Below are positions 18,913-31,243 of a stretch of 64,000 nucleotides of DNA, piece by piece. A program made the position numbers and the translations under genes. Below the pieces are notes generated by a model. It was not told the DNA's origin, made no database searches, and saw only the letters and a list, made by a program, of their open reading frames with translations. The stretch's first letter is position 1; each line of letters starts with the position of its first letter. The stretch comes from Candidatus Nitrospira allomarina (GTDB lineage: Bacteria > Nitrospirota > Nitrospiria > Nitrospirales > UBA8639): NCBI RefSeq assembly GCF_032050975.1, contig NZ_CP116967.1, forward strand, positions 3,779,001-3,843,000, written 5' to 3'.

Positions 18913-21900
18913 ATGTCTGAGAATGCTTCACACATTGATGTTTTATGGCTACTGATCTGTGCGGCCCTCGTCATGCTCATGCAAGGGGGATTTACCTGCC
19001 TGGAAACAGGTCGTGTTCGAGCCAAAAATAGCATCAACGTCGCGATCAAAAACCTGGTGGACTTTTGTACCTCATCTCTTGCCTTTTGGGTGGCAGGATT
19101 CGCCTTGATGCACGGACCAACGACAGCCGGCCTCATCGGCACAGAGGGGTTTCTTTTTAATGCCCACGAGCAGGGATGGTTGTGGGCGTTTTTTTTCTTT
19201 CAGATGGTATTTTGTGGAACCGCCACAACCCTCGTCTCAGGTGCCGTTGCCGAGCGGATGCGATTTACAGGGTATTTGGTCACCAGCCTCATTGTGTCTC
19301 TACTCATTTATCCCATTGTTGGCCATTGGATGTGGGGAGGATTAGCCACAGGGCAGAATACCGGATGGTTGAACCAACTCGGATTTATTGACTTTGCGGG
19401 CTCAACCGTCGTCCATTCCACAGGAGGTTGGGTGGCGTTGGCGGCCGTCATGATCATCGGACCCCGCCATGGTCGCTTTTCCAACAAGGCCGTGCCTATC
19501 CAGGGACAGAATCTGCCATTAGCCACACTTGGAGTCTTGCTGCTGTGGTTCGGATGGTACGGTTTTAATGGGGGGAGTAGTCTCGAGTTTACCCAGAAAG
19601 CCTCACAGATTCTGGTAAATACAACTCTTGCCGGAGCCACCGGTGCTCTGACAACTCTTGGCATAAGCTGGTATTACCTGAAACGGCCCGATGTCGGTCA
19701 TGCCCTAAACGGTGTCCTGGCCGGTCTGGTCAGCATTACCGCTTCCGCCAATATCATGTCGCCTGAAGGCACGATCCTCATAGGCGTCGGAGCCGGGATT
19801 ATCTGTGTCGGTGCAACCATCATTCTTGAACGTTTGCACATTGACGACGCAATTGGCGTCGTACCCGTTCATGCCTGCGTAGGGGTGTGGGGCACCGTTG
19901 TCTTTCCCTTCTTGAGTTCTCCGGACTCCTGGGGCACAGGGCTCACCGTCTGGGAACAAGCGGGCATACAAATCCTAGGAAGCACCGTCTGTTTCTTTTG
20001 GGCATTTGGTATGGGCTTCGCCATTCTCTGGCTGATCAATCAATGGGTTTCCCTGCGTGTCACAGCCGAAGAGGAACAAATCGGGCTCAACATGACAGAA
20101 CATGGCGCCGGCACGCCCATTCTGGATCTCCTTGTCCAAATGGAAGAGCAACGAAACAGTCATGACTTTACCCGTCATGTCCTCTCAGAGCCTCACACGG
20201 AGGTTGGCCAGATCGCGGAGGAATATAACCGGGTACTAGACACGATCAATAGGGAGCAGCGACGACGGCAAGAAATGGATGCCGCCCTAGCCTATGGGGC
20301 CAGACTTGATACCCTCTTTCAGGAAATCGCAAAGGCCACAAACGAATCCTCGACAATTGAAGATGCGATGCAAATCACGATGAATTTGATCTGTCAGAAT
20401 ACCGGATGGCCTGTCGGTCACTTGTACCTTCTATCTGAAGACACCAGCCACACTCTCCTTCCCACGACCATCTGGCATTTGAAACACCCGGACTGCTTTG
20501 AGACCTTTCGTTCCATAACCGAACACACCGTTTTTGAAACCGGCGTGGGTCTTCCCGGTCGGGTGTTGGCCAGTGGAAAACCAGGGTGGATTCGGGATGT
20601 GACACAAGATCCCAATTTCCCCAGAGCTCAAGTAGCAAAAGATATTGGCGTGAGGGCTGGATTTGGATTTCCAATTCTCATCGGGAAACAGGTGGTAGGC
20701 GTGTTGGAGTTTTTTTCGACGGAAACGATGGAGCCGGATGCCAAATTATTAGAAGTCATGGGATATGTTGGAGCACAACTTGGCCGTGTGGTGGAACGCA
20801 AACGAGGAGAGGCCATCTTGATTCATGCCAAAGCTGAAGCCGAGGCCGCGACGAAAACGAAAGCCGATTTCCTGGCCATGATGAGTCATGAAATCCGAAC
20901 GCCGTTAAATGGCATCATCGGCATATCGGATATTTTGCTCGGCACACATCTCAGCGAAGACCAGCAAGACTGTCTCCTCACGATCAAGGATTCGGGTGAT
21001 GCGCTCCTCACGATCATCAATGACATTCTCGATTTCTCAAAAATTGAAGCCGGCAAGCTGACACTTGAGACGATAGACTTTGACTTTCGAGAGACGGTGG
21101 ATGCCGTAGTTGATCTGTTAGGCCTTAAGGCTCAGGAAAAGGGGATAGAATTGATTAGCTTGATCAATCCGGAAATTCCCACCACCGTCCAAGGTGATCC
21201 CGTACGACTTCGCCAGATCTTGATGAACCTCATTGGCAATGCAATTAAGTTCACCGCTCAGGGTGAAATTGTGGTTCAGGTTGTACCCGAAGAGGACACC
21301 TCTGGAACCGGCCTCTTACGATTCATGATTACCGACACGGGTATTGGGATATCCCCTGAAGGCCAGAATCGACTGTTTCAGGCCTTTAGCCAGGAAGACA
21401 GCTCCACAACCCGGAAATACGGAGGAACAGGATTGGGCCTCTCCATAACCAAAATGCTGGCCGAACTCATGGGAGGAACGATCGGAGTCCATAGCGAATT
21501 AGGTCAAGGAAGCTGCTTCTGGTTCACCATCCGATTAGGCAGCCAACAGTCTCACCGGATACCTGATAAGGTTTTGCCTCGCGAACTTGAGGGTGTGCGT
21601 ATTGTTCTCATCGATGATAACGCCACAAATCGAATGCTCCTTCAACTATATACACGCTATTGGGGCATGCAAGGTATCCAAGCCGAAAATGGCGAGAAGG
21701 CCCTGGCCTTAATCCGGGAATGCGCCTTGAATGAAGAACCCTGTCACCTTGCTCTCATCGATATGAACATGCCTGGCATGGATGGTCTCGAACTGGCAAA
21801 AGCCATCAAAGCGGATCCGCAATTGGCATCCATGCGTTTGATCTTGCTCAATCCTTTGATTAACCGGGTCGAAAATACCCACAGCCTCACTCAAAGGCAC

Positions 21901-22866
21901 TTTTCGGCCTTTGTCAACAAACCGGTTCGCTACAAGCAATTGCATCAATGTCTCTTAAATGTCATGAGAAGGTCTGACGTGGCCCCTTCCCCCAGCATGA
22001 TTCAAACGCCCACGAATGAGATGAATAAAGGCTCCGGACAGCGACTCCTCCTGGTCGATGATAATCTCGTCAACCAACAAGTCGGCGTTCGCATGCTGAC
22101 CACACTCGGATACCAGGTGGATATTGCAGCGAATGGACGTGAGGCGGTTGAAGCCATCACACGGACCGCCTATGCCGGTGTATTCATGGACTGTCAAATG
22201 CCGGAAATGGACGGATTTGAGGCCACCAGAGAAATACGAAAACGTGCACGTATCACCCCACACCTGCCCATCATTGCCATGACGGCCACCGCCATGGTTG
22301 GGGATCGGGAAAAATGTTTGGAAGCCGGCATGAATGATTTTTTATCCAAACCGGTGAAATTAGAAGATCTGAGACGTATTTTGGAGAAATGGCTCTTCCA
22401 AGCTTCTTCAACGAGACACCATGAGGATGAAGCAGGACCTCATCAACCAGACAATCGAGAGGTTTCACCTCGATCCGGAACATCCGCACCGGACCTTTCT
22501 CCACCCTTGGATTCGACGATTCTCGCGGACCTCCGCCGATTGGGCGGAGATGAGGATCCCGTATTTTTCATTTCCGTTATCGAGCAATTTTGTCAGGATT
22601 CAGTTTCACACATGGATCGAATCAATCTGGCGATACAGAAAAACGAGGGTGATTCCCTCAGCAAGGTGGCGCATGCGTTCAAAGGTTGCTCACGAACCAT
22701 TGGCGCCAAGCCACTTGCCGAACTAGCCTTTCAACTTGAGCAAATAGGACAGACCCAAAATCTTGAAAAAGCTCAAGCCATCTTCGTATCACTGCAATCT
22801 GAATTCGAGCGGGTGCAAGCGGCTCTGCAAGATGAATTAAAGCAGTCCTCTGCGACCCTTCCATAA
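18913..22866 (+). CDS. Ammonium transporter-hybrid histidine kinase fusion (Amt-GAF-HisKA-HATPase-REC-REC-HPt)
   Basis: A 1317-residue membrane sensor kinase. Residues 1-about 400 are a full-length Amt/MEP channel: Asp160, His168 and His320 match the structural Asp and the twin pore histidines, Phe100 and Phe218 the phenylalanine gate, and Ser222 the recruitment serine. The Amt C-terminal GLNMTEHG motif is kept. Then come a helical linker, a GAF-like domain (about 455-620), HisKA with phospho-accepting His659 in MSHEIRTP, and a HATPase domain. Two receivers follow (Asp950 and Asp1093), then an HPt domain with His1254. Amt-kinase fusions are known ammonium sensors in other bacteria, so this protein should report external ammonium to a phosphorelay. 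Pore residues are intact, so transport is not excluded. ATG 18913 is the only start after an in-frame stop at 18895; its ribosome site is weak. No output regulator is encoded next door. Confidence 0.93.
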   Translation: MSENASHIDVLWLLICAALVMLMQGGFTCLETGRVRAKNSINVAIKNLVDFCTSSLAFWVAGFALMHGPTTAGLIGTEGFLFNAHEQGWLWAFFFFQMVFCGTATTLVSGAVAERMRFTGYLVTSLIVSLLIYPIVGHWMWGGLATGQNTGWLNQLGFIDFAGSTVVHSTGGWVALAAVMIIGPRHGRFSNKAVPIQGQNLPLATLGVLLLWFGWYGFNGGSSLEFTQKASQILVNTTLAGATGALTTLGISWYYLKRPDVGHALNGVLAGLVSITASANIMSPEGTILIGVGAGIICVGATIILERLHIDDAIGVVPVHACVGVWGTVVFPFLSSPDSWGTGLTVWEQAGIQILGSTVCFFWAFGMGFAILWLINQWVSLRVTAEEEQIGLNMTEHGAGTPILDLLVQMEEQRNSHDFTRHVLSEPHTEVGQIAEEYNRVLDTINREQRRRQEMDAALAYGARLDTLFQEIAKATNESSTIEDAMQITMNLICQNTGWPVGHLYLLSEDTSHTLLPTTIWHLKHPDCFETFRSITEHTVFETGVGLPGRVLASGKPGWIRDVTQDPNFPRAQVAKDIGVRAGFGFPILIGKQVVGVLEFFSTETMEPDAKLLEVMGYVGAQLGRVVERKRGEAILIHAKAEAEAATKTKADFLAMMSHEIRTPLNGIIGISDILLGTHLSEDQQDCLLTIKDSGDALLTIINDILDFSKIEAGKLTLETIDFDFRETVDAVVDLLGLKAQEKGIELISLINPEIPTTVQGDPVRLRQILMNLIGNAIKFTAQGEIVVQVVPEEDTSGTGLLRFMITDTGIGISPEGQNRLFQAFSQEDSSTTRKYGGTGLGLSITKMLAELMGGTIGVHSELGQGSCFWFTIRLGSQQSHRIPDKVLPRELEGVRIVLIDDNATNRMLLQLYTRYWGMQGIQAENGEKALALIRECALNEEPCHLALIDMNMPGMDGLELAKAIKADPQLASMRLILLNPLINRVENTHSLTQRHFSAFVNKPVRYKQLHQCLLNVMRRSDVAPSPSMIQTPTNEMNKGSGQRLLLVDDNLVNQQVGVRMLTTLGYQVDIAANGREAVEAITRTAYAGVFMDCQMPEMDGFEATREIRKRARITPHLPIIAMTATAMVGDREKCLEAGMNDFLSKPVKLEDLRRILEKWLFQASSTRHHEDEAGPHQPDNREVSPRSGTSAPDLSPPLDSTILADLRRLGGDEDPVFFISVIEQFCQDSVSHMDRINLAIQKNEGDSLSKVAHAFKGCSRTIGAKPLAELAFQLEQIGQTQNLEKAQAIFVSLQSEFERVQAALQDELKQSSATLP

Positions 22867-22888
22867 TACGAGAAAAGCAGGTCATCTG

Positions 22889-22910
22889 TGCCCTGACAAA
22901 AAGGGCAATT
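22889..22910 (+). terminator. Weak terminator after amt-kinase gene
   Basis: TGCCCT and AGGGCA form a six-pair stem around GACAAAA (22889-22907), 23 bases after the stop codon. It is followed only by ATTTAT rather than a full T-run, so it is a weak candidate. Confidence 0.35.
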
Positions 22911-23092
22911 TATCTAGACGGGAGTTTAAGAACAGGCATTGGTCCCAAGCCTGATCTACCATGACCACATAACACCCTTCTCGCCTGATTATTTCTCAAG
23001 TGGGGTTTCGTGCCTTTCTCTTCACGGTCCAAACAGGTCCATATGCTTCCTTGAAGTGAGCCTTAAGCCCTCGCCATCCAAACGGACTTTTT

Positions 23093-23749
23093 CTATTCTT
23101 CAGATGAAATGGCATTTGATTGGTTAGATTGAACCTGAAAAAAATCCCCGCCTTTATGGCATTCGTCGTCCGTTCCCCAATGCAGTTCCTTCTCAACCTT
23201 TTTCATCAGAGGAACATGCTTGGAACAGTGAATATAGGCTTCATCCACTTCTACCATCACCCAACATTCGGGATGTTGTCCCCCTTTCATGTGCGAAGCG
23301 TTAACCAGGGACTGGGGAATTACTGGTATGGCAACCACTTCTTCATTGGTCATCACACGTGCCTGTCCATTCACATGCAGACCGACCGTACTTTGTAAAA
23401 AATCGATGAACAGCAGGCCGATCCGGGGATTTTCAAGAATGTTGCCGACACTCGCCATCACCCCGTTCCCGCGATATTCGGGATAGGCCAACATTTTGGC
23501 ATTGAGCACTCTGACGAACCCGGCAGTCCCTGCTCGATACGAGCAATCACATTCGCCGTTGGCATTGGCGGTCGAAAGAAACACCATCTCCTGTCTGGCA
23601 ATAAACGACTGCATTTTGTCGTTTAATTCGTTCGTCATCTGATTCCGATGAAAAGCCGCAGCCCGTCTGGCTGTTCCAAACATCCGTTGGGCTTGCCCCT
23701 CCCCCTCGGAATTCACAGACGGTGATACTTCTTCCCGCTCGTTGTTCAT
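23093..23749 (-). CDS. Pyridoxamine 5'-phosphate oxidase-like (PPOX/FMN-binding split barrel) protein
   Basis: A 218-residue soluble protein of the pyridoxamine-phosphate-oxidase-related split-barrel family. It has the characteristic pattern FLSTANANGECDCSYR, followed by LAYPEYRGNG and a segment on non-degrading neighbours (ENPRIGLLFIDF). Members bind FMN or F420 and serve varied redox roles; the true vitamin B6 enzyme is smaller and has different active-site residues, so the substrate is unknown. The N-terminal 35 residues look disordered and the C-terminus is Ser/Gln/Asn-rich. The ATG follows AAAGGCG. It is convergent with the Amt-kinase gene and stands alone. Confidence 0.82.
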   Translation of the reverse strand: MNNEREEVSPSVNSEGEGQAQRMFGTARRAAAFHRNQMTNELNDKMQSFIARQEMVFLSTANANGECDCSYRAGTAGFVRVLNAKMLAYPEYRGNGVMASVGNILENPRIGLLFIDFLQSTVGLHVNGQARVMTNEEVVAIPVIPQSLVNASHMKGGQHPECWVMVEVDEAYIHCSKHVPLMKKVEKELHWGTDDECHKGGDFFQVQSNQSNAISSEE

Positions 23750-24064
23750 TTCACGCCTTTGTTTTTTGGCAAATGCGAAGCCAGAGGCTGCCTTGCCGTC
23801 GTAAATTAGTGGAAATCTCCGGAGGGAGATTCACTTGATATCTTAGGGGCACAGGCGTGCCTAAGGAAAGAACCACATTCCCCATCACACCTCAGAATAT
23901 GACGGATGTGAGACACTTTCAATTATTGAAAGAGAAAGCTGATGTGCTGCGGAGAAGTGAGAGAAAACCTGAATAACTTGGAGTACCCGTATGAGAATTC
24001 ATCCCCACGCCTAACCAAATGCGTGATGAGGAACAAAAGCTATGATGGAAAAAGCGAATCGACA
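23750..24064. other. Intergenic region upstream of PPOX-like gene with small dyad
   Basis: No gene. It contains a perfect seven-base inverted repeat, AATCTCC (23814-23820) and GGAGATT (23825-23831) with a GGAG loop, about 70 bases before the PPOX-like start. It could be an operator or a leader hairpin. Confidence 0.4.
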
Positions 24065-24631
24065 CTAAAAGCCGATACCTACCCCTACCCCGCCACCGAC
24101 CCGGCCTCCGGTGCTACCACCACCAAAGATGCTGTACCAGGGACCAGATCTGCTTTTCTGAATCAAGGCCTGATCTTTCCACACATATAAGTGCCTGATC
24201 ACCACTTCGGGAAACTGATAGTCCATTTCATCAAGCTTGGCGGAAACAGTCCCCGTTACCTCTCCCACGAGAGTGATCTGAGTATTCGCCGGGAACATTG
24301 CCGGGTCAAGAAAGGCTTTCTCCATGGCAATAAACCGGCCTTGTGAGTCGGTGCGAGTTAGCACGGGCCGTTGATATTCATCCAAGGGTAATTGCAACAC
24401 CTCAAGCCGAGTACCTTCCTCAATACGCTTGGCCGACAGAACCTCCCCTCCAAGCACGAGCATCTTTCCCAGATAGGCCCCAGGATGTTGAACCACATCC
24501 GAAAACGTGAGTGTGGGATCAACCTGTTTCTGAAGAATTTCCGGTATTTCCACGGGTGAGGAGGCGCATCCCCCCGCACTCCCTAGAGCGAGCACCAAAC
24601 ACCATATGAGATTTTTTAGTTTCATCATCAT
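24065..24631 (-). CDS. slp: Slp-family outer membrane lipoprotein
   Basis: A 188-residue lipoprotein of the Slp (starvation-inducible outer membrane lipoprotein) family. The signal peptide ends in a lipobox, A-G-G-Cys22. The body has the family's opening PEILQKQVDPTLTFSDV, then the VLGGEVL and LPLDEYQRP segments. It ends in an unusual glycine-rich tail (GGGSTGGRVGGGVGVG). Slp proteins sit in the outer membrane and are linked to stress in enterobacteria; the role here is unknown. Three consecutive Met codons start the frame and no strong ribosome site is visible. It stands alone on the minus strand. Confidence 0.88.
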   Translation of the reverse strand: MMMKLKNLIWCLVLALGSAGGCASSPVEIPEILQKQVDPTLTFSDVVQHPGAYLGKMLVLGGEVLSAKRIEEGTRLEVLQLPLDEYQRPVLTRTDSQGRFIAMEKAFLDPAMFPANTQITLVGEVTGTVSAKLDEMDYQFPEVVIRHLYVWKDQALIQKSRSGPWYSIFGGGSTGGRVGGGVGVGIGF

Positions 24632-24783
24632 ATTCTATCATATGCCGATTGATCAATTTGGGTGGAGGATCTGACCGGCAACCCATCATACCAGATGAAC
24701 CCAATCAAGAGACCTCTTGAATCATAGCCGTCCAGCATAACAATCCTGCGCACCCAAGACGTTTTTTTCCACCCACACGTTCC

Positions 24784-25115
24784 CATTTCATCGCACGCCG
24801 GTACTTTGTCGTCAATGGATTCGACGGCGCACTCTTGAGGCTGGGTTTGTTAGTGGGATTCTATGTGAGCGACGAAGTCAAATTGCCTGTGGTCATCGGT
24901 GTCTGCCTCGGATGGCCATCGTCCTGGGGAGGAGCGGCATCAGTAGCGCCTATATTAGCGATGCTGCGGAAAAGCGCAGGGAGATCAGGAAGCTTGAAAA
25001 AGCCATGGTGACCAGTTTAAGGCAATCGGCCCATGGACGAGCCGCTCAACTCCTGCCGGTCGTTATTGCCTTGGTACATGGGATCGCTCCCTTGGATTCA
25101 AGCGTCAGAACCTGA
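24784..25115 (+). pseudogene. Remnant of a VIT1/CCC1-type membrane transporter gene
   Basis: Two overlapping frames together read like the N-terminal half of a VIT1/CCC1-family (iron/manganese) transporter. Frame one, from about 24784, reads ARRYFVVNGFDGALL...GLLVGFYVSDE. A one-base shift near 24910 leads to frame two (24912-25115), reading SGISSAYISDAAEKRREIRK, then a segment matching the family's conserved PVVIALVHGIAPL. There is no start codon or ribosome site in front, and the reading breaks off where the family would continue into more membrane helices. The 3' end runs into the converging response-regulator gene. Gene decay is the simplest reading. The family call is from remembered consensus, not a search. 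Confidence 0.7.
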
Positions 25116-25475
25116 AATGGCCTGACGAACGATAACGAGCAGATCCTGCAAATTGTAGGGTTTTTGGAGAACCGCATAGACCCCTAAGGCACGAACCTGT
25201 TGTTCTAATTCCATAGTCAGCTGGCCGGAATATAGGATCAAGGGATGGGTGGAAATATAAGATTGCTGTGCCAGTCGTTGGACGAATTCCAGCCCCGTCA
25301 TCACGGGCATTTGATTATCGGAAATCACCAGATCGAAGGACCGCCCTTGCTGGATCAGGGCTAACCCTACCGCCCCGTTTTCCGCTTCTTCAATGTTATA
25401 CCCTTGTGCCTCGAGGAATTCCTTTAGGGCTTCTCGAGCCATCTGATGGTCATCGACCAGGAGAATACGTTTCAT
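25098..25475 (-). CDS. Single-domain CheY-like response regulator
   Basis: A 125-residue stand-alone receiver. The acidic pair is in LLVDDHQ, the phospho-accepting Asp in LVISDNQMP, and the conserved Lys in VLQKPYN; the usual Thr/Ser position is the YSG segment. There is no output domain, so it should act by protein contact or as a phosphotransfer intermediate. It lies between two hybrid kinases that both end in HPt domains and could be a target of either. ATG at 25475 is preferred over the adjoining GTG at 25478. Its 3' end overlaps the decayed transporter fragment on the other strand. Confidence 0.9.
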   Translation of the reverse strand: MKRILLVDDHQMAREALKEFLEAQGYNIEEAENGAVGLALIQQGRSFDLVISDNQMPVMTGLEFVQRLAQQSYISTHPLILYSGQLTMELEQQVRALGVYAVLQKPYNLQDLLVIVRQAISGSDA

Positions 25476-26381
25476 CACTTCCAGCGTCCCTGTTCCCTTG
25501 TGTCTTGAGGGGGTGAAGGTTGCCTATGTGTATCACATGAAACCCTGCCAAATCTTGGGGATCAATGATCTTTGCGTACTATGTTAATCATATCAGTTAC
25601 GTCAAGGATTCGATGCTGATGAGTATCCCGCCACATCATGTGGAATACATGAGGCCATCCGGTCGGTTACCACCAGCCCGACTCTCCCCGTTCATCCGTT
25701 GCCGCGGGTGCCACCAGAGATGCCTATCGTTATGCACTGGACAGGAAGGTCATCGCTCTCGCCAGATGAAAGACTTCGCGCGTGTACACATCCGCAGCCA
25801 TACGCACCCCGCCTATCACAGGACCACAAGCGAGATTGTCGATCGCCACTTTTATTCCCCGCATACCATTGTTTGGATTATAGAGATGCTTGAATCTCTG
25901 CTCATCCTTGTCAATTCTGCTAATTTGAGTGATTAAAAGGGTTATTACTCTCAGATCTCTGATGCATGTTGTCCCACATTATTGGCCAGTGAGTTCAATC
26001 TTTTCCCACTCTCCTCTTTCATGGTTGTTTCTTCACATCCCAACTCCCTGAAAAATATAAAGAAGAACCCCTCCCAATCCGAAAGGGGTGAAGATGCCCC
26101 GGCCTCATTCACAGAAAAAAAAGGCCGCAATCATTTGGAATTTATCCTCTGCTGCTGCGGGCCCGGTGGCGTAAATGTAGGAAATATCCATGTCCGTATT
26201 GCCTGTCTTCTCAGTCTCTCCGCTGAAAGGAAAATATACAAGGGGGTTTAGGCCACCACAGTTCAGTATGATGGCGCTCCGGCTCCAATGGGGCATCGCC
26301 GGAATCATATATTCCCCGGAATAGGCGTAGGCACCGAACCAGCATGACTTTGGAATTTGGCATGACAGCGAGAGACAGTCG
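25476..26381. other. Intergenic region with a decayed gene
   Basis: About 900 bases between the response regulator and the binding-protein gene, divergent. It contains the dehydrogenase fragment described separately. From 25940 to 26380 I see no recognisable gene. An ACCCCT...AGGGGT dyad lies near 26066-26090. Confidence 0.45.
25735..25920 (-). pseudogene. Fragment of a Glu/Leu/Phe/Val dehydrogenase gene
   Basis: Read on the minus strand, an uninterrupted stretch of about 60 codons matches the N-terminal dimerisation part of the Glu/Leu/Phe/Val dehydrogenase family. It reads FKHLYNPNNGMRGIKVAIDN, then LACGPVIGGVRMAADVYTRE, then VFHLARAMTF. It breaks off exactly where the family continues with K-N-A-x-A-G and the glycine-rich GGGK motif: the frame turns into unrelated sequence and stops near 25730. 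No start codon with a ribosome site is visible upstream. No catalytic lysine or NAD-binding domain remains, so it is a remnant. The identification comes from consensus knowledge of this family, not a database search. Confidence 0.7.
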
Positions 26382-27323
26382 ATGAGATCTTCCTGGCGGA
26401 TCCCCTTTCACTTGATCCTATTCACAGCTGTGCTTCTTCTTTGCTCAGTTATCCCCGGCCAAGCAGAACCCCGAATCAGCATCCTTATGACTCAGCAAAG
26501 CGGTACCTACCAGGATGTGCGGAAGGGTTTTCAGCAGTATTTAGACAAACAGGGAATCGCCGTGGAATATGATATTCGAAACTTTGAAGGACCTGTCCAG
26601 GAAACAGAGGGGATCCTGCAAGCACTGAAGACGACAAATCCTTCGATGATCCTGACCCTCGGGTCCCCTGCGACAGAAGCGGTCATTCGTGAGGTGAAGA
26701 ACATTCCGATCATTGCCGGAATGATCATGAATGAAGCCGAACTCACAAAGGGAGAGAATGCGACAGGAATTGTGTTGGAATTTCCTCTGCAAACACATAT
26801 TTCTTGGATCCAAAAGCTGTTGCCTCATAAAAAAACCATCGGGGCGTTGTTTAATTCCCGGGAAAACACCGGAACCATTGAACAGGCCCGTCGGATTATT
26901 GAAGACTCCGGCATGACCTTCTATCCCAAAAAGGTCGAGACACCACGGGACCTGCCCGATGCCCTGGACAGTCTGCCTGGCAACGCCGACCTCCTGTGGG
27001 GTCTCACGGATTCTGTCGTGTTTTCCCCGGAAACAGCCAAAGGTATTTTATTGTTTTCCTTCCGGAATCGAATTCCATTTGTCGGCCTTTCCACGTCTTG
27101 GGTCAAAGCGGGAGCCGTGTACGCGTTGGATCGGGATTACGTCGATATTGGCATTCAATGTGGAGAACTCGCAGAACAAGTCCTCAAGGGGGTGGATATT
27201 CATTCTCTGAAACCTCAATCGCCTCGAAAAGTGTTGTATGCCCTCAACCTCAATTCCATCAACCACATGCACTTAAACCTTTCAGATGCAGTGCTAAGGG
27301 GTGCTCATCCCGTGTTTGAGTAA
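26382..27323 (+). CDS. Periplasmic ABC-type substrate-binding protein (TrpX/PF04392-like)
   Basis: A 313-residue exported protein with a clear signal peptide cleaved after GQA (about residue 28). The mature part has the ABC_sub_bind pattern: a first lobe beginning [20 protein letters not shown], then the [10 protein letters not shown] and NIPIIAGMI segments, then the second lobe with [11 protein letters not shown]. Relatives bind amino acids or aromatic compounds, but the ligand cannot be told here. No ABC permease or ATPase lies alongside. The next gene, 16 bases on, is a membrane hybrid kinase, so it more likely acts as a ligand-binding co-sensor than as part of an importer. ATG at 26382 has only a weak ribosome site. 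Confidence 0.85.
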
Positions 27324-27339
27324 TCGACCAGGAGATAGA

Positions 27340-30255
27340 ATGAAAAATATACGGATTAACCTCGTCTCCAAATTCAATACCCTGATTCTCTCCTTGATAA
27401 CCATTATGGCCTTAGGGATCGGGCTCATTGTGGCTCTCGTCCAACAGAATCATCAAATGGAGGCCTTACATCATCATGGAATGGCCATCGCCGCAATGGT
27501 CGCTCAGGCTGGAGAATATGCGATGTATACCGAAAATCAGGAGGCTCTCCGCCAGGTCCTTGCTCAACTGGACACGAATCCGGACATCGCCTATGTGGCG
27601 TTGCGTAATGCTCAGACCAACATTCTTCTATCCAAATCCATCCATGAAACTATCCAAATACCCGTGATCGACCTTCAGGAAAAAACCGCATTCCCGGCTT
27701 TCATCCGCTCCTATAATGCGGTCAATCACGGTGACGGTCAAACCTATTTGGAATTTCTGGCCCCGGTTGTCACCCAACCCCGAACTGATGATTTATTTTC
27801 CGCAACCGCAGTCGCCCCACCTCAGGCGAACGTCATTGGCTTTGTACAATTTGGATTCAGTCTCAAAAGACTAGAGGCGCAACGAGCCACCTTCCTCCAG
27901 TCACTCGCCTGGTACACCTTGTCGTTCGTCCTCTTAGCCAGTTTCATTACGATTTTATTGGTTCGGAAAATAACCGCACCTGTCAAAAAACTTGCCAACG
28001 TTGCAAGGGATATCACCGCAGGCAATCTCGACCAGCCGATTGAGTTCACAATCGACACGAAGGATGAAATTCATGATTTGGCCGTGTCATTCACTCAAAT
28101 GTTTGATTGGTTGCGCCAGTACCGGCGCGAAGTGGAATCGTATCAACAATCCTTGGAAGAAAAAGTTACTCAACGGACCCAGGAGCTCAGTCAGGCCAAA
28201 GACGAGGCGCTTCACTTGGCCGAAGACGCCAAAGCAGCCAACCAGGCAAAAAGTGAGTTTCTCGCTACCATGAGCCACGAAATCCGTACCCCGATGAATG
28301 GAATTATTGGCATGACTGATTTATTACTGGACACCGAGTTGGCAAAGGATCAGCGATACTATGCCACCACCGTCAGGAATTCGGGAGAATCCCTTCTCAC
28401 AATCCTGAACGACATTTTGGATTTTTCAAAAATCGAAGCCGGAAAACTTGAATTTGAAAGCATTCCTTTTGATCTTCGTCAGGCCGTGGAAGAGACGTTG
28501 GAACTGGTCGGGGAACGAGCTCTGAAAAAAGGGCTGGAATTGGTGGGATGGGTCTTCCCCGATGTCCATGCCACCGTCATGGGGGACCCCGGACGATTTC
28601 GTCAAGTTTTACTCAACCTTCTAAGCAATGCCATCAAATTCACCGAACATGGTGAGATTGGCGTACAGATTCTGCGCCTGGAAGACGGAGAGCACGACAT
28701 CCATATTCGCGTTCAGGTTTCCGATACCGGGGTGGGAATTTCCCCGGAAGCTCAGAAGAAAATATTTGAATCCTTTAGCCAAGCTGATAGCTCGACGACC
28801 AGGAAATACGGGGGAACAGGACTGGGACTGGCTATTTGTAAACGCATTGTGGAGTTATCCGGCGGAACCATAGGAGTGGAAAGTCAATTAGGACAAGGAA
28901 GTGTCTTCTGGTTTACGCTCCGTCTCCAAAAATACTGGCAAGACCTGCCGTCTCACGTTGATACTGATCAAAACATTCTGGAAGGGCTTCGAGTATGTTG
29001 CGTGGATGACAATGATACCAACCGGCACCTCTTAGCCCAGTATGCGGAAGATTGGGGAATGCGAGCGACTTCTGCTTCTTCCGGTATGGAAGCCTTAGCG
29101 GTGCTACGAGCCGGTGTGGCCCGAGACAAACCATTTGATCTGGCCATTCTCGATATGCATATGCCTAATATGGACGGACTGGAATTAGTCAGAGCCATCA
29201 AGGCGGACCCCAGGATTCAGAATGTTCGCTGCCTCCTCTTAACCTCTCTCGGAAGGCGCGGTGATGCCAAGGAGGCGCAACGTGCGGGATTTCAGGCGTA
29301 CCTGACCAAACCGGTCCGGAAGACACAACTGAAACAAAGCTTAGTGGCTGTGATGGTCCCCGAACAACCCACAGAAAAGGCGAATCAAGATACTTTGGTT
29401 ACTCTGCATTCTCTCAAAGACAAATCCAGGAATCAGCAGCCGAGTACCATCCTTGTGGCAGATGATCATACGGTAAATCAGGAATTGGCTTCACTCTTAT
29501 TACACAAACTTGGGCACGAGGTGGAAGTGGTACCCAACGGTAAGGCTGCGATTGAAACTATTCAGAAACGGCCCTTTGCCCTCATCCTAATGGATTGTCA
29601 GATGCCGGATATGGATGGATATGCGACCACCAAAGCGATTCGAGCCTGGGAAGGAGAACAACGTCATACCCCGATAATTGCGGTGACGGCCAACGCCATG
29701 TCCGGGGATCGGGAGAAGTGTCTTGCCGCCGGCATGGATGATTACTTAACCAAACCCATTAAACCGGATAAACTCCGGGACATGCTCCGACGCTGGTTAC
29801 CACGGGAGGAACGAACGGCTGTCCCACTCCATCATATTGACGACGGCGTACTCCTTCGAAAGCCCCTCACGAATTCCGATCCTCTCAAAACCGGGTCCGA
29901 CACATCCCAACCATTGGATGCTGAGCGGTTGGCCGAATGGCGTACGTTGGGGGGGAACGAATTTGTGTGCAAAATCCTGAAAAATTTTATTCGCGAAGCA
30001 TTGGAATGCGCCTCGCAGGTTCAAGAGGCTGTCACGACAGAAAATTGGGAAGATTTAACGCTAGCGGCCCATGGGCTCAAGGGAATTTGCCGAAACGTCG
30101 GGGTGCAAAAATTGGCCGAGTTGGCTTTGGCATTGGAGCAACACGATTGTCATGAATCGTTTGAGACGGTCCGGCACAAATTATCTGCTCTCCAGGAAGA
30201 GTTGGCTCGAGTACAATATGCCTTGGAGCATGAAGTGGTCCAACACTCTACATAA
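27340..30255 (+). CDS. Membrane hybrid histidine kinase (CHASE8-like sensor, HAMP, HisKA, HATPase, REC, REC, HPt)
   Basis: A 971-residue sensor kinase. TM1 lies at about 12-34, a periplasmic region of about 160 residues resembles CHASE8 sensors, and TM2 lies at about 190-210. HAMP and a coiled coil follow, then HisKA with His313 in MSHEIRTP, HATPase, two receivers with Asp605 and Asp752, and an HPt domain with His911 (AAHGLKG). The start is ATG 27340 with AGGAG seven bases upstream; an in-frame ATG at 27301 lies inside the previous gene. It is probably co-transcribed with the binding protein 16 bases upstream, which may present ligand to its periplasmic domain. The C-terminal half has the same layout as the Amt-kinase fusion. 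Confidence 0.92.
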
Positions 30256-30616
30256 ATTTCTGGTAGTCGCATGCTTCCCTCAAATTGACGGGAACCGGAG
30301 GTACGGGCAATGGGGCCATCCAATAAAGACAGTCTGGATGGATTCCGGCCCTTCTTCTCGTTCCTTGTACCCAAAATTCGGTTCAAGAACCCCTTTTTAG
30401 AAATAAGGCAACTACCATGTGGGTTAAAATAAGACTGGTGTACCGATATGCCAGTTTATGCCACACAGAGAGGACCAGAGGTGGCAGGAACGAAGAGGAA
30501 GGCAACTATTTCAAGTAATAGTGCCATCCTTGACAAACAGGCTTGAATCGGGAAAAGCATCCCAAGAAGAAAACTGGTATTTGTACCAAACGATTACTGA
30601 GAAATTGTGGGACTCA
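30256..30616. other. Intergenic gap after second hybrid kinase
   Basis: About 360 bases between convergent genes. I see no gene and no convincing terminator. Confidence 0.35.
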
Positions 30617-30805
30617 CTAGTATTGCGGTGGTTGCGGGCCTGGCCGTATCCCAACTAAATCGGGATCTTCCCCATCAAGCACTCGAGGAGGTTCTTCGCT
30701 TTCCGACTTGCGTTGCTCACGTCGGGCTTCTTTATCCTGTTGCTTCATTCTTTTGACCATCTCACGATTTCGTTTGGCCTGGGTCACTTTTGTCGGTCGT
30801 CCCAT
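30617..30805 (-). CDS. Small highly basic protein of unknown function
   Basis: A 62-residue protein, very rich in Lys and Arg in its first half (KVTQAKRNREMVKRMKQQDK) and acidic/proline-rich in its second half. The start is strongly supported by AAAGGAGG just upstream. It is probably helical and could bind nucleic acid, but this is only a composition-based guess. Not recognised. Confidence 0.7.
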   Translation of the reverse strand: MGRPTKVTQAKRNREMVKRMKQQDKEARREQRKSESEEPPRVLDGEDPDLVGIRPGPQPPQY

Positions 30806-30973
30806 TTATCTTCCTCCTTTCGATTAGGGTATCACGCCTCCGGCTCCATCATTTGAAAAGCTGAAAAGCTTTTCTAGGCTCTGCCTCATTGCCAGACTAT
30901 CTTGTTTGAGGCACCGGTCCTCACGGGCATCCAAGTGCCGACTCTCGTCCGGCCAAGCAGCATAATACCTACG

Positions 30974-31243
30974 CTACGTGGACTCCCTGCGTGCTTTGGG
31001 CGGCTTTCCTGAGGTCGAAGAACGGGATACTTTTTGAGGCACCACATCAAGGCGAGTCGCGCTATCCTGATCGAACCCGGGACTGGACATCATCAGAACT
31101 TGTCGGCGAACCTCATCAATCGGCATAGGAATTTTTTCTTTAGAAGGATCAGCGAGGCCAAGGAGATCCCAACGAATTTTCGGCTCAGGTTTGAATGTTT
31201 TTCTATTTCTAACCTTGCCACCCCACTTCATTGTCAGCTTCAT
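30974..31243 (-). CDS. Small hypothetical protein
   Basis: An 89-residue basic protein that I do not recognise. It has KPEPKIRWDLLGLADPSKEK and a Ser/Lys/Arg-rich C-terminal tail. ATG 31243 follows AGAAGGAGG (31251-31259). The longer frame starting at 31297 is not favoured because it places this excellent ribosome site inside the gene. The Shine-Dalgarno lies in the loop of a tiny hairpin, AGAAG-GAGG-CTTCT. It is the upstream neighbour of the 62-residue basic protein gene, on the same strand. Confidence 0.6.
   Translation of the reverse strand: MKLTMKWGGKVRNRKTFKPEPKIRWDLLGLADPSKEKIPMPIDEVRRQVLMMSSPGFDQDSATRLDVVPQKVSRSSTSGKPPKARREST

Follow-up and report, generated by a model that had tools for sequence, protein, structure and literature searches.

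The minus-strand stretch at 25730-25889 of the window (the whole 64,000-nucleotide piece of the Candidatus Nitrospira allomarina genome that was analysed) is almost certainly a dead gene of the Glu/Leu/Phe/Val (ELFV) dehydrogenase family, made by deletion from an intact parent whose neighbours were kbl, preceded by tdh, on one side and a response regulator gene on the other. The pseudogene is ordinary in kind and the mechanism of its deletion is well resolved; it serves as a marker, showing that genes for amino-acid degradation which two close relatives retain as a set are missing, through loss, from a complete genome in a lineage of nitrite oxidisers.

Results

Family match of the relic

A remnant of a glutamate/leucine dehydrogenase gene had originally been predicted on the minus strand at 25735-25920. 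Its presence was borne out by the translation, by a match to the Pfam ELFV dimerisation domain (PF02812) and by full-length relatives with collinear flanks, whilst its extent was refined to a homologous N-terminal piece fused to the final ten codons of the same gene with their stop (Table 1). The translation reads ...HLYNPNNGMRGIKVAIDNLACGPVIGGVRMAADVYTREVFHLARAMTF, then LSSA and the stop. The translated search against the dehydrogenase family, proposed as a check, gave a match over profile positions 21-60 of 129, its 24.1 bits lying 1.2 bits below the curated gathering score of 25.3 bits; besides PF02812, zero Pfam families matched the relic at E 1. When the genome was searched in six frames with PF02812 the relic scored 21.4 bits (E 5.4e-4), which is below the cut-off. 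Its descent from an ELFV dimerisation domain rests on the full-length orthologues, the intact orthologue matching PF02812 with 97.1 bits, and chance similarity as the source of the relic match was ruled out by the collinear intact genes in relatives.

The relic amounts to about one-sixth of the parent protein. At the point where its match stops the intact orthologue continues ...ARAMTFKNAAAGLPHGGGK, and this comparison upheld the prediction that the match ends just before the glycine-rich motif should come. The coenzyme-binding domain (PF00208) and the glycine-rich GGGK motif, both present in the orthologue, have been deleted, and the relic is therefore not a working member of the ELFV family.

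Table 1. Features at and around the dehydrogenase relic (window positions); G010 is a genome of the same genus and L016 its corresponding locus.
Feature	Position	Strand	Evidence
5' piece of ELFV dehydrogenase pseudogene, corresponding roughly to codons 21-68 of the parent's 370	25746..25889	-	blastn 88% to G010, 90% to G018; PF02812 E 3.2e-5; tblastn of G010 protein E 7e-21
3' end of dehydrogenase gene (native stop and the ten codons before it), joined to the 5' piece without a frame change	25730..25760	-	collinear with G010 locus L016 6987-7017
Receiver-domain response regulator, intact; follows the dehydrogenase in G010 and G018	25098..25478	-	PF00072 E 5e-25; 95% identical to G010, 88% to G018
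Second relic: VIT1-like membrane protein gene that lacks its two ends and has a frame break near 24912	24770..25106	+	tblastn residues 15-60 and 61-125 of 195, two frames; joints 24768/24770 and 25091-25095
ABC-type substrate-binding protein, open in the window; about 22 matching residues left in G010	26382..27323	+	PF04392 E 7e-35
Hybrid histidine kinase, open in the window; fragments only in G010	27301..30255	+	domain matches; comparison with G010
Ammonium-transporter-domain hybrid kinase (context only)	18913..22866	+	PF00909 E 1.6e-115
Joint, net 503 bp lost vs G010 (DUF211 gene and start of VIT1-like gene)	24768/24770		blastn vs L016
Joint, net 488 bp lost vs G010	25091-25095		blastn vs L016
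Joint inside dehydrogenase gene, net 894 bp lost in frame vs G010	25746..25760		imperfect 15-bp direct repeats, 894 bp apart in G010, align here
Joint, net 3279 bp lost vs G010 (dehydrogenase start, acyl-CoA ligase stub, kbl, tdh)	25887..25889		3-base overlap of two alignments

The intact gene and its locus in relatives

Intact dehydrogenase genes of 370 aa (G010) and 369 aa (G018) were found in place in two genomes of the same genus, beside kbl, tdh and the response regulator gene; the comparison of the same locus in relatives that had been called for thus puts the loss, relative to these two, on the window's side. The relic is 90% identical over 40 residues to the G018 protein (open frame 374 aa) and 89% identical over 39 to that of G010 (open frame 375 aa). 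When its 40 residues were searched against 59 genomes, the window's own included, matches at E 0.01 were found in eight, its own among them; the further matches were in G001 (89%), G002 (two copies, 84% and 81%), G009 (81%) and G038 of the same order (70%), the match in G003 being a 47% paralogue. The full G010 protein gave matches of at least 79% in five of the 19 other genomes of the genus (G001, where it lies in two contig-end pieces, G002, G009, G010 and G018) and of 57% in G038; a 91% match is carried by the record DOFS01000199.1 (25764 bases). Many of the compared genomes are incomplete, and gene absences in them weigh little. The window's genome is a single contig of 4.55 Mb, estimated to be 100% complete, and no second copy of the lost gene was found in it, the best intact matches to the G010 protein being two other ELFV genes at 36-38% identity. 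Family UBA8639 is lineage IV of the Nitrospirales according to PMC12342949.

On the minus strand of the G010 locus the order is tdh, kbl, dehydrogenase, response regulator, beyond which lie VIT1-like, DUF211 and Slp lipoprotein genes; G018 (L015) has the same gene set with two extra ORFs between the response regulator and the VIT1-like gene. Four genes are at their expected places within the window, namely those for Slp, the response regulator, the ABC-type binding protein and the hybrid kinase. No dehydrogenase match was found at the locus in G003, G012, G014, G016 and G009; loss of the dehydrogenase here is not confined to the window. Between the Slp and Sel1-like genes of G014, G003 and G012 (L085, L086 and L087) there are broken stretches 42-61% identical to the hybrid kinase, and none in G016.

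Deletion joints

The joints were mapped by blastn of window positions 22801-27600 against L016, which gave collinear blocks with clean gaps, and both joints of the dehydrogenase gene are seen directly in these alignments. The repeats at the first of them lie in G010 at L016 7003-7017 and 7897-7911 and are identical at 13 of 15 positions (87%), with a single copy remaining in the window, as expected of a deletion between direct repeats. Both copies encode AMTF and the reading frame was therefore kept: in the relic the RAMTF codons of the N-terminal part merge with the KAMTF codons near the C-terminus, after which the gene's original stop follows. The break comes just before the glycine-rich motif because the 894-bp deletion joined the RAMTF codons to the last codons of the gene. 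At the other three joints there is no repeat of 15-bp length and at most a few bases of overlap. Mobile-element insertion was considered as a cause but found no support, as no transposase was noticed near the joints among the ORFs listed for the window and the relatives.

In this lineage, then, a deletion between the two short direct repeats in the gene (RAMTF/KAMTF codons) removed 298 codons in frame, the presumed route being either slipped mispairing or recombination at short homology. The start of the gene went along with kbl and tdh in a second deletion, of about 3.3 kb, and the remainder, without its coenzyme-binding domain, seems to be drifting under no visible constraint.

Loss of tdh and kbl

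In G010, Kbl scored 633.8 bits with TIGR01822 (cut-off 493), whilst Tdh passed with PRK05396 (430.9 against a cut-off of 380) and fell short with TIGR00692 (427.4 against 458.35); the tdh and kbl genes of G018 are 94% identical to these. Neither gene was found above its cut-off in the window's genome, where the best score for tdh was 129.9 bits (cut-off 458.35), with no match to the G010 Tdh at 1e-40, and that for kbl was 315.6 (cut-off 493), its best relative being 39% identical. Matches to tdh of at least 84% are present in five of the 20 genomes of the genus, the window's counted (G002, G009, G010, G013 and G018), and G004 has a 34% match only. Window positions 23001-31000 were also searched for remnants of kbl, tdh, DUF211, the TonB receptor, the acyl-CoA ligase and the oxidoreductase, and none was found at E 0.01. 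The Tdh and Kbl route converts threonine to glycine and acetyl-CoA, and it is threonine breakdown by this route that appears to have been lost in the window's lineage.

Substrate type of the parent enzyme

The original prediction had offered either an ammonium-assimilating or an amino-acid-catabolic gene as the one lost. In alignment the parent has Ile45 and Ala310 at the Lys and Ser positions of glutamate dehydrogenases, where these residues (in Clostridium symbiosum, K89 and S380) bind the glutamate side chain; the relic has Ile at the Lys position, and its Ser position is deleted. Eighty relatives were kept from 109 loci found by a search with the parent, and were thus chosen by likeness to it, four of them (L151-L154) being contigs of G018, G002 (two) and G009 over again. 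Among these 80, the Lys position is I in 68, V in nine, L in two and M in one, the Ser position is A in 64 and G in 16, and none has either Lys or Ser there. Both K and S are present in all 24 control loci (L127-L150), which are the best matches to the G010 protein in genomes other than the orthologue carriers, the window's own included; the five controls that were scanned, its own gene (L001) among them, matched glutamate dehydrogenase models along their length with best scores of 463-526 bits, below the curated cut-offs of 620 and 750. The latter gene (C1:2922652, open frame 435 aa, PF02812 189.2 bits) is intact and of glutamate-dehydrogenase type, scoring 490.9 bits against an NCBIfam cut-off of 620; its full-length match to the glutamate dehydrogenase of T. 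maritima reaches 458 bits, against 212 bits for the parent. A further ELFV gene of the window's genome (C1:957579, L002; open frame 418 aa, PF02812 68 bits), for which no NCBIfam model gave more than 168 bits where the cut-off is 620, carries Arg (GISRGG) in place of the Lys for the glutamate side chain.

It is very unlikely that the parent was a glutamate dehydrogenase serving ammonium assimilation and that its loss altered nitrogen assimilation. The top solved-structure matches of the parent are indeed glutamate dehydrogenases (T. maritima at E 1.5e-61, with 140 bits for the best leucine dehydrogenase), and its top NCBIfam match is the archaeal glutamate dehydrogenase model, at 226.6 bits against a cut-off of 750. 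However, the parent and all 80 relatives lack both glutamate-side-chain residues, with I/V/L/M and A/G where every control has K and S, and an intact gene with both residues persists in the window's genome; on these grounds loss of ammonium assimilation was rejected, and the assimilatory half of the prediction is not supported. The parent is read as a non-glutamate, probably aliphatic amino-acid dehydrogenase with a likely catabolic role, and the hydrophobic residue at the specificity position fits an enzyme of leucine/valine type. The ammonium-sensing kinase, which had been placed at less than 3 kb, does lie 2.86 kb away, but no result of this analysis links the two functionally beyond this closeness.

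Gene neighbours of the dehydrogenase subfamily

A 2-oxoacid:ferredoxin oxidoreductase subunit is encoded somewhere in the fetched stretch in 34 of the 80 relatives and is absent from 46; in 22 of the 80 it lies within 300 bp on the same strand. Where 1.5 kb was available on both sides it was found within that distance and on the same strand in 17 of 66 relatives, as compared with none of the 24 controls (about 1.5 kb each side). The 46 relatives without the gene, together with its presence in only 17 of the 44 that have full flanks, argue against a tight link between dehydrogenase and oxidoreductase. Among the 80, tdh occurs only in L151, which is G018 itself, and one further locus has a 37% relative of kbl. 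The catabolic half of the prediction is supported by gene context, through the threonine-degradation neighbours (kbl and tdh) and the frequent oxidoreductase neighbours in part of the homologues, and a 2-oxo acid made by the parent enzyme may have passed to a 2-oxoacid:ferredoxin oxidoreductase.

The subfamily as sampled here (L151-L230) spans many phyla, is without the glutamate-binding Lys/Ser and in part adjoins 2-oxoacid:ferredoxin oxidoreductase genes. At L019 (with L020, from the Nitrospirota drafts G002/G009), the neighbours include the ornithine-breakdown proteins Ord, OrtB and OraE, all above cut-offs; at L153, the contig of L020, Ord (87% identity) and OrtB (93%) stand beside the same dehydrogenase subfamily.

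Codon changes and expression signals

Changes private to the relic fall on codon positions 1/2/3 in the numbers 3/5/2 over 40 comparable codons, against 1/0/2 for G010 and 0/0/1 for G018 in the same codons (Fisher, positions 1+2 vs 3, p 0.095). Over its whole length the intact gene differs between G010 and G018 at 24/12/63 sites (p 0.014 against the relic), and the response regulators of the window and G010 differ at 6/3/17 (p 0.025); such comparisons involve few changes, and a count of private changes does not measure exactly the same thing as a count of plain differences. Genes that have been kept in the window favour third positions relative to G018, with 59/18/94 for the binding protein and 48/29/162 for the first 472 kinase codons. 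The pattern in the relic, small as the numbers are, fits that of a gene in decay; the relic also has one extra codon.

The deletion preserved the frame, and an open ORF of 44 codons (25730-25864) remains, which starts with ATG and ends at the native stop. The fusion might therefore be read as a functional protein of 44 aa, perhaps a decoy subunit able to use its dimerisation domain for pairing with another dehydrogenase. This is extremely improbable: changes fall alike on all three codon positions (in a small sample), the parent's own start region is lost, no ribosome-binding site was seen by eye before the ATG, and the sole promoter-like site in 25450-26400, a stretch for which chance predicts 1.3, is located in the gap from the relic to the response regulator. 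Two overlapping terminator-like sites were found in the same stretch at 26067-26089 (0.7 expected), and no Rfam match reached its gathering score in 24000-27000. The idea that the cell has an intact gene, which the assembly dropped at short repeats, has next to no credibility, for although one joint falls on a short repeat, the genome is a single, apparently complete contig, the four separate joints within 1.1 kb all have collinear flanks, the relic has its own substitutions and extra codon, and so short a repeat would seldom collapse an assembly.

Gene losses at the locus

The pseudogene is not the only relic here. The VIT1-like gene, broken in the window, is open in G010, G018 and G009 (the intact G010 protein scores 27.6 bits against VIT1, just below the cut-off of 28.1), and the adjacent DUF211 gene is gone from the window. 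The fullest gene set is found on a G002 contig (L094), with an oxidoreductase gamma-delta subunit, acyl-CoA ligase, kbl, tdh, TonB-type receptor, binding protein and kinase. In G018 and G010 only the first 95-97 or so residues of the ligase are left between kbl and the dehydrogenase, and its loss therefore looks common to both. The receptor is missing from both the window and G010, and G010 shows the reverse loss to the window (L016 11763-12489), keeping the enzymes with only 22 binding-protein residues and scraps of the kinase. G010 seems nearer to the window than G018 is, with identities of 88% vs 81% for Slp and 95% vs 88% for the response regulator. After loss of the receptor, the window's lineage would thus have lost the enzymes and kept the sensor genes, whilst that of G010 would have lost the sensor genes and kept the enzymes. 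These opposite losses mean that the sensor and enzyme halves are separable, which argues against an obligate link between the hybrid kinase and the enzymes. The broken kinase stretches in G014, G003 and G012 suggest repeated erosion of the locus across the genus.

Discussion

The relic leads to a prediction, namely that the strain from which the window comes differs from its relatives in the use of threonine and perhaps of other amino acids. It also draws attention to a dehydrogenase subfamily in many phyla that is nearest to glutamate dehydrogenase in searches, yet is without the glutamate-binding residues. A description of the locus was not found, among the matches listed, in the open-licence literature on Nitrospira genomes and amino acids, Nitronereus, threonine dehydrogenase, and clusters of leucine dehydrogenase with 2-oxoacid ferredoxin oxidoreductase (with passages of PMC8115632, PMC12342949 and PMC10579370).

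A wider reading can be put forward tentatively, and we regard it as possible rather than probable. Marine Nitrospira relatives may carry a separable two-part island, with a sensor half (TonB-type receptor, ABC-type binding protein and hybrid kinase) and a catabolic half (tdh, kbl, acyl-CoA ligase, 2-oxoacid:ferredoxin oxidoreductase and a non-glutamate ELFV dehydrogenase), of which opposite halves have been lost in close species and nearly all in others; the many-phyla subfamily would then oxidise an amino acid to a 2-oxo acid for the ferredoxin-linked oxidoreductase. If this were true, an autotrophic nitrite oxidiser could draw electrons and acyl-CoA from amino acids.

Bacterial pseudogenes that arise by deletion between short direct repeats are of a known kind, and the dehydrogenase relic resembles them in its net 894-bp loss between imperfect 15-bp repeats and perhaps in a relaxed codon pattern, differing only in that both repeat copies here encode the same residues (AMTF). 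With the ELFV dehydrogenases of hydrophobic-substrate type (leucine, valine or phenylalanine dehydrogenase) the relic and its orthologue share the sequence match (PF02812 and PF00208) and the replacement of Lys/Ser by Ile/Ala; however, the relic has about one-sixth of the length and no coenzyme-binding domain, and the full-length parent scores higher against glutamate than against leucine dehydrogenases. The likeness to threonine degradation by Tdh and Kbl lies in G010, which has both genes beside the intact dehydrogenase, and in G018, which also has both, whereas the window's genome has neither gene above cut-off and the dehydrogenase itself stands outside the textbook pathway.
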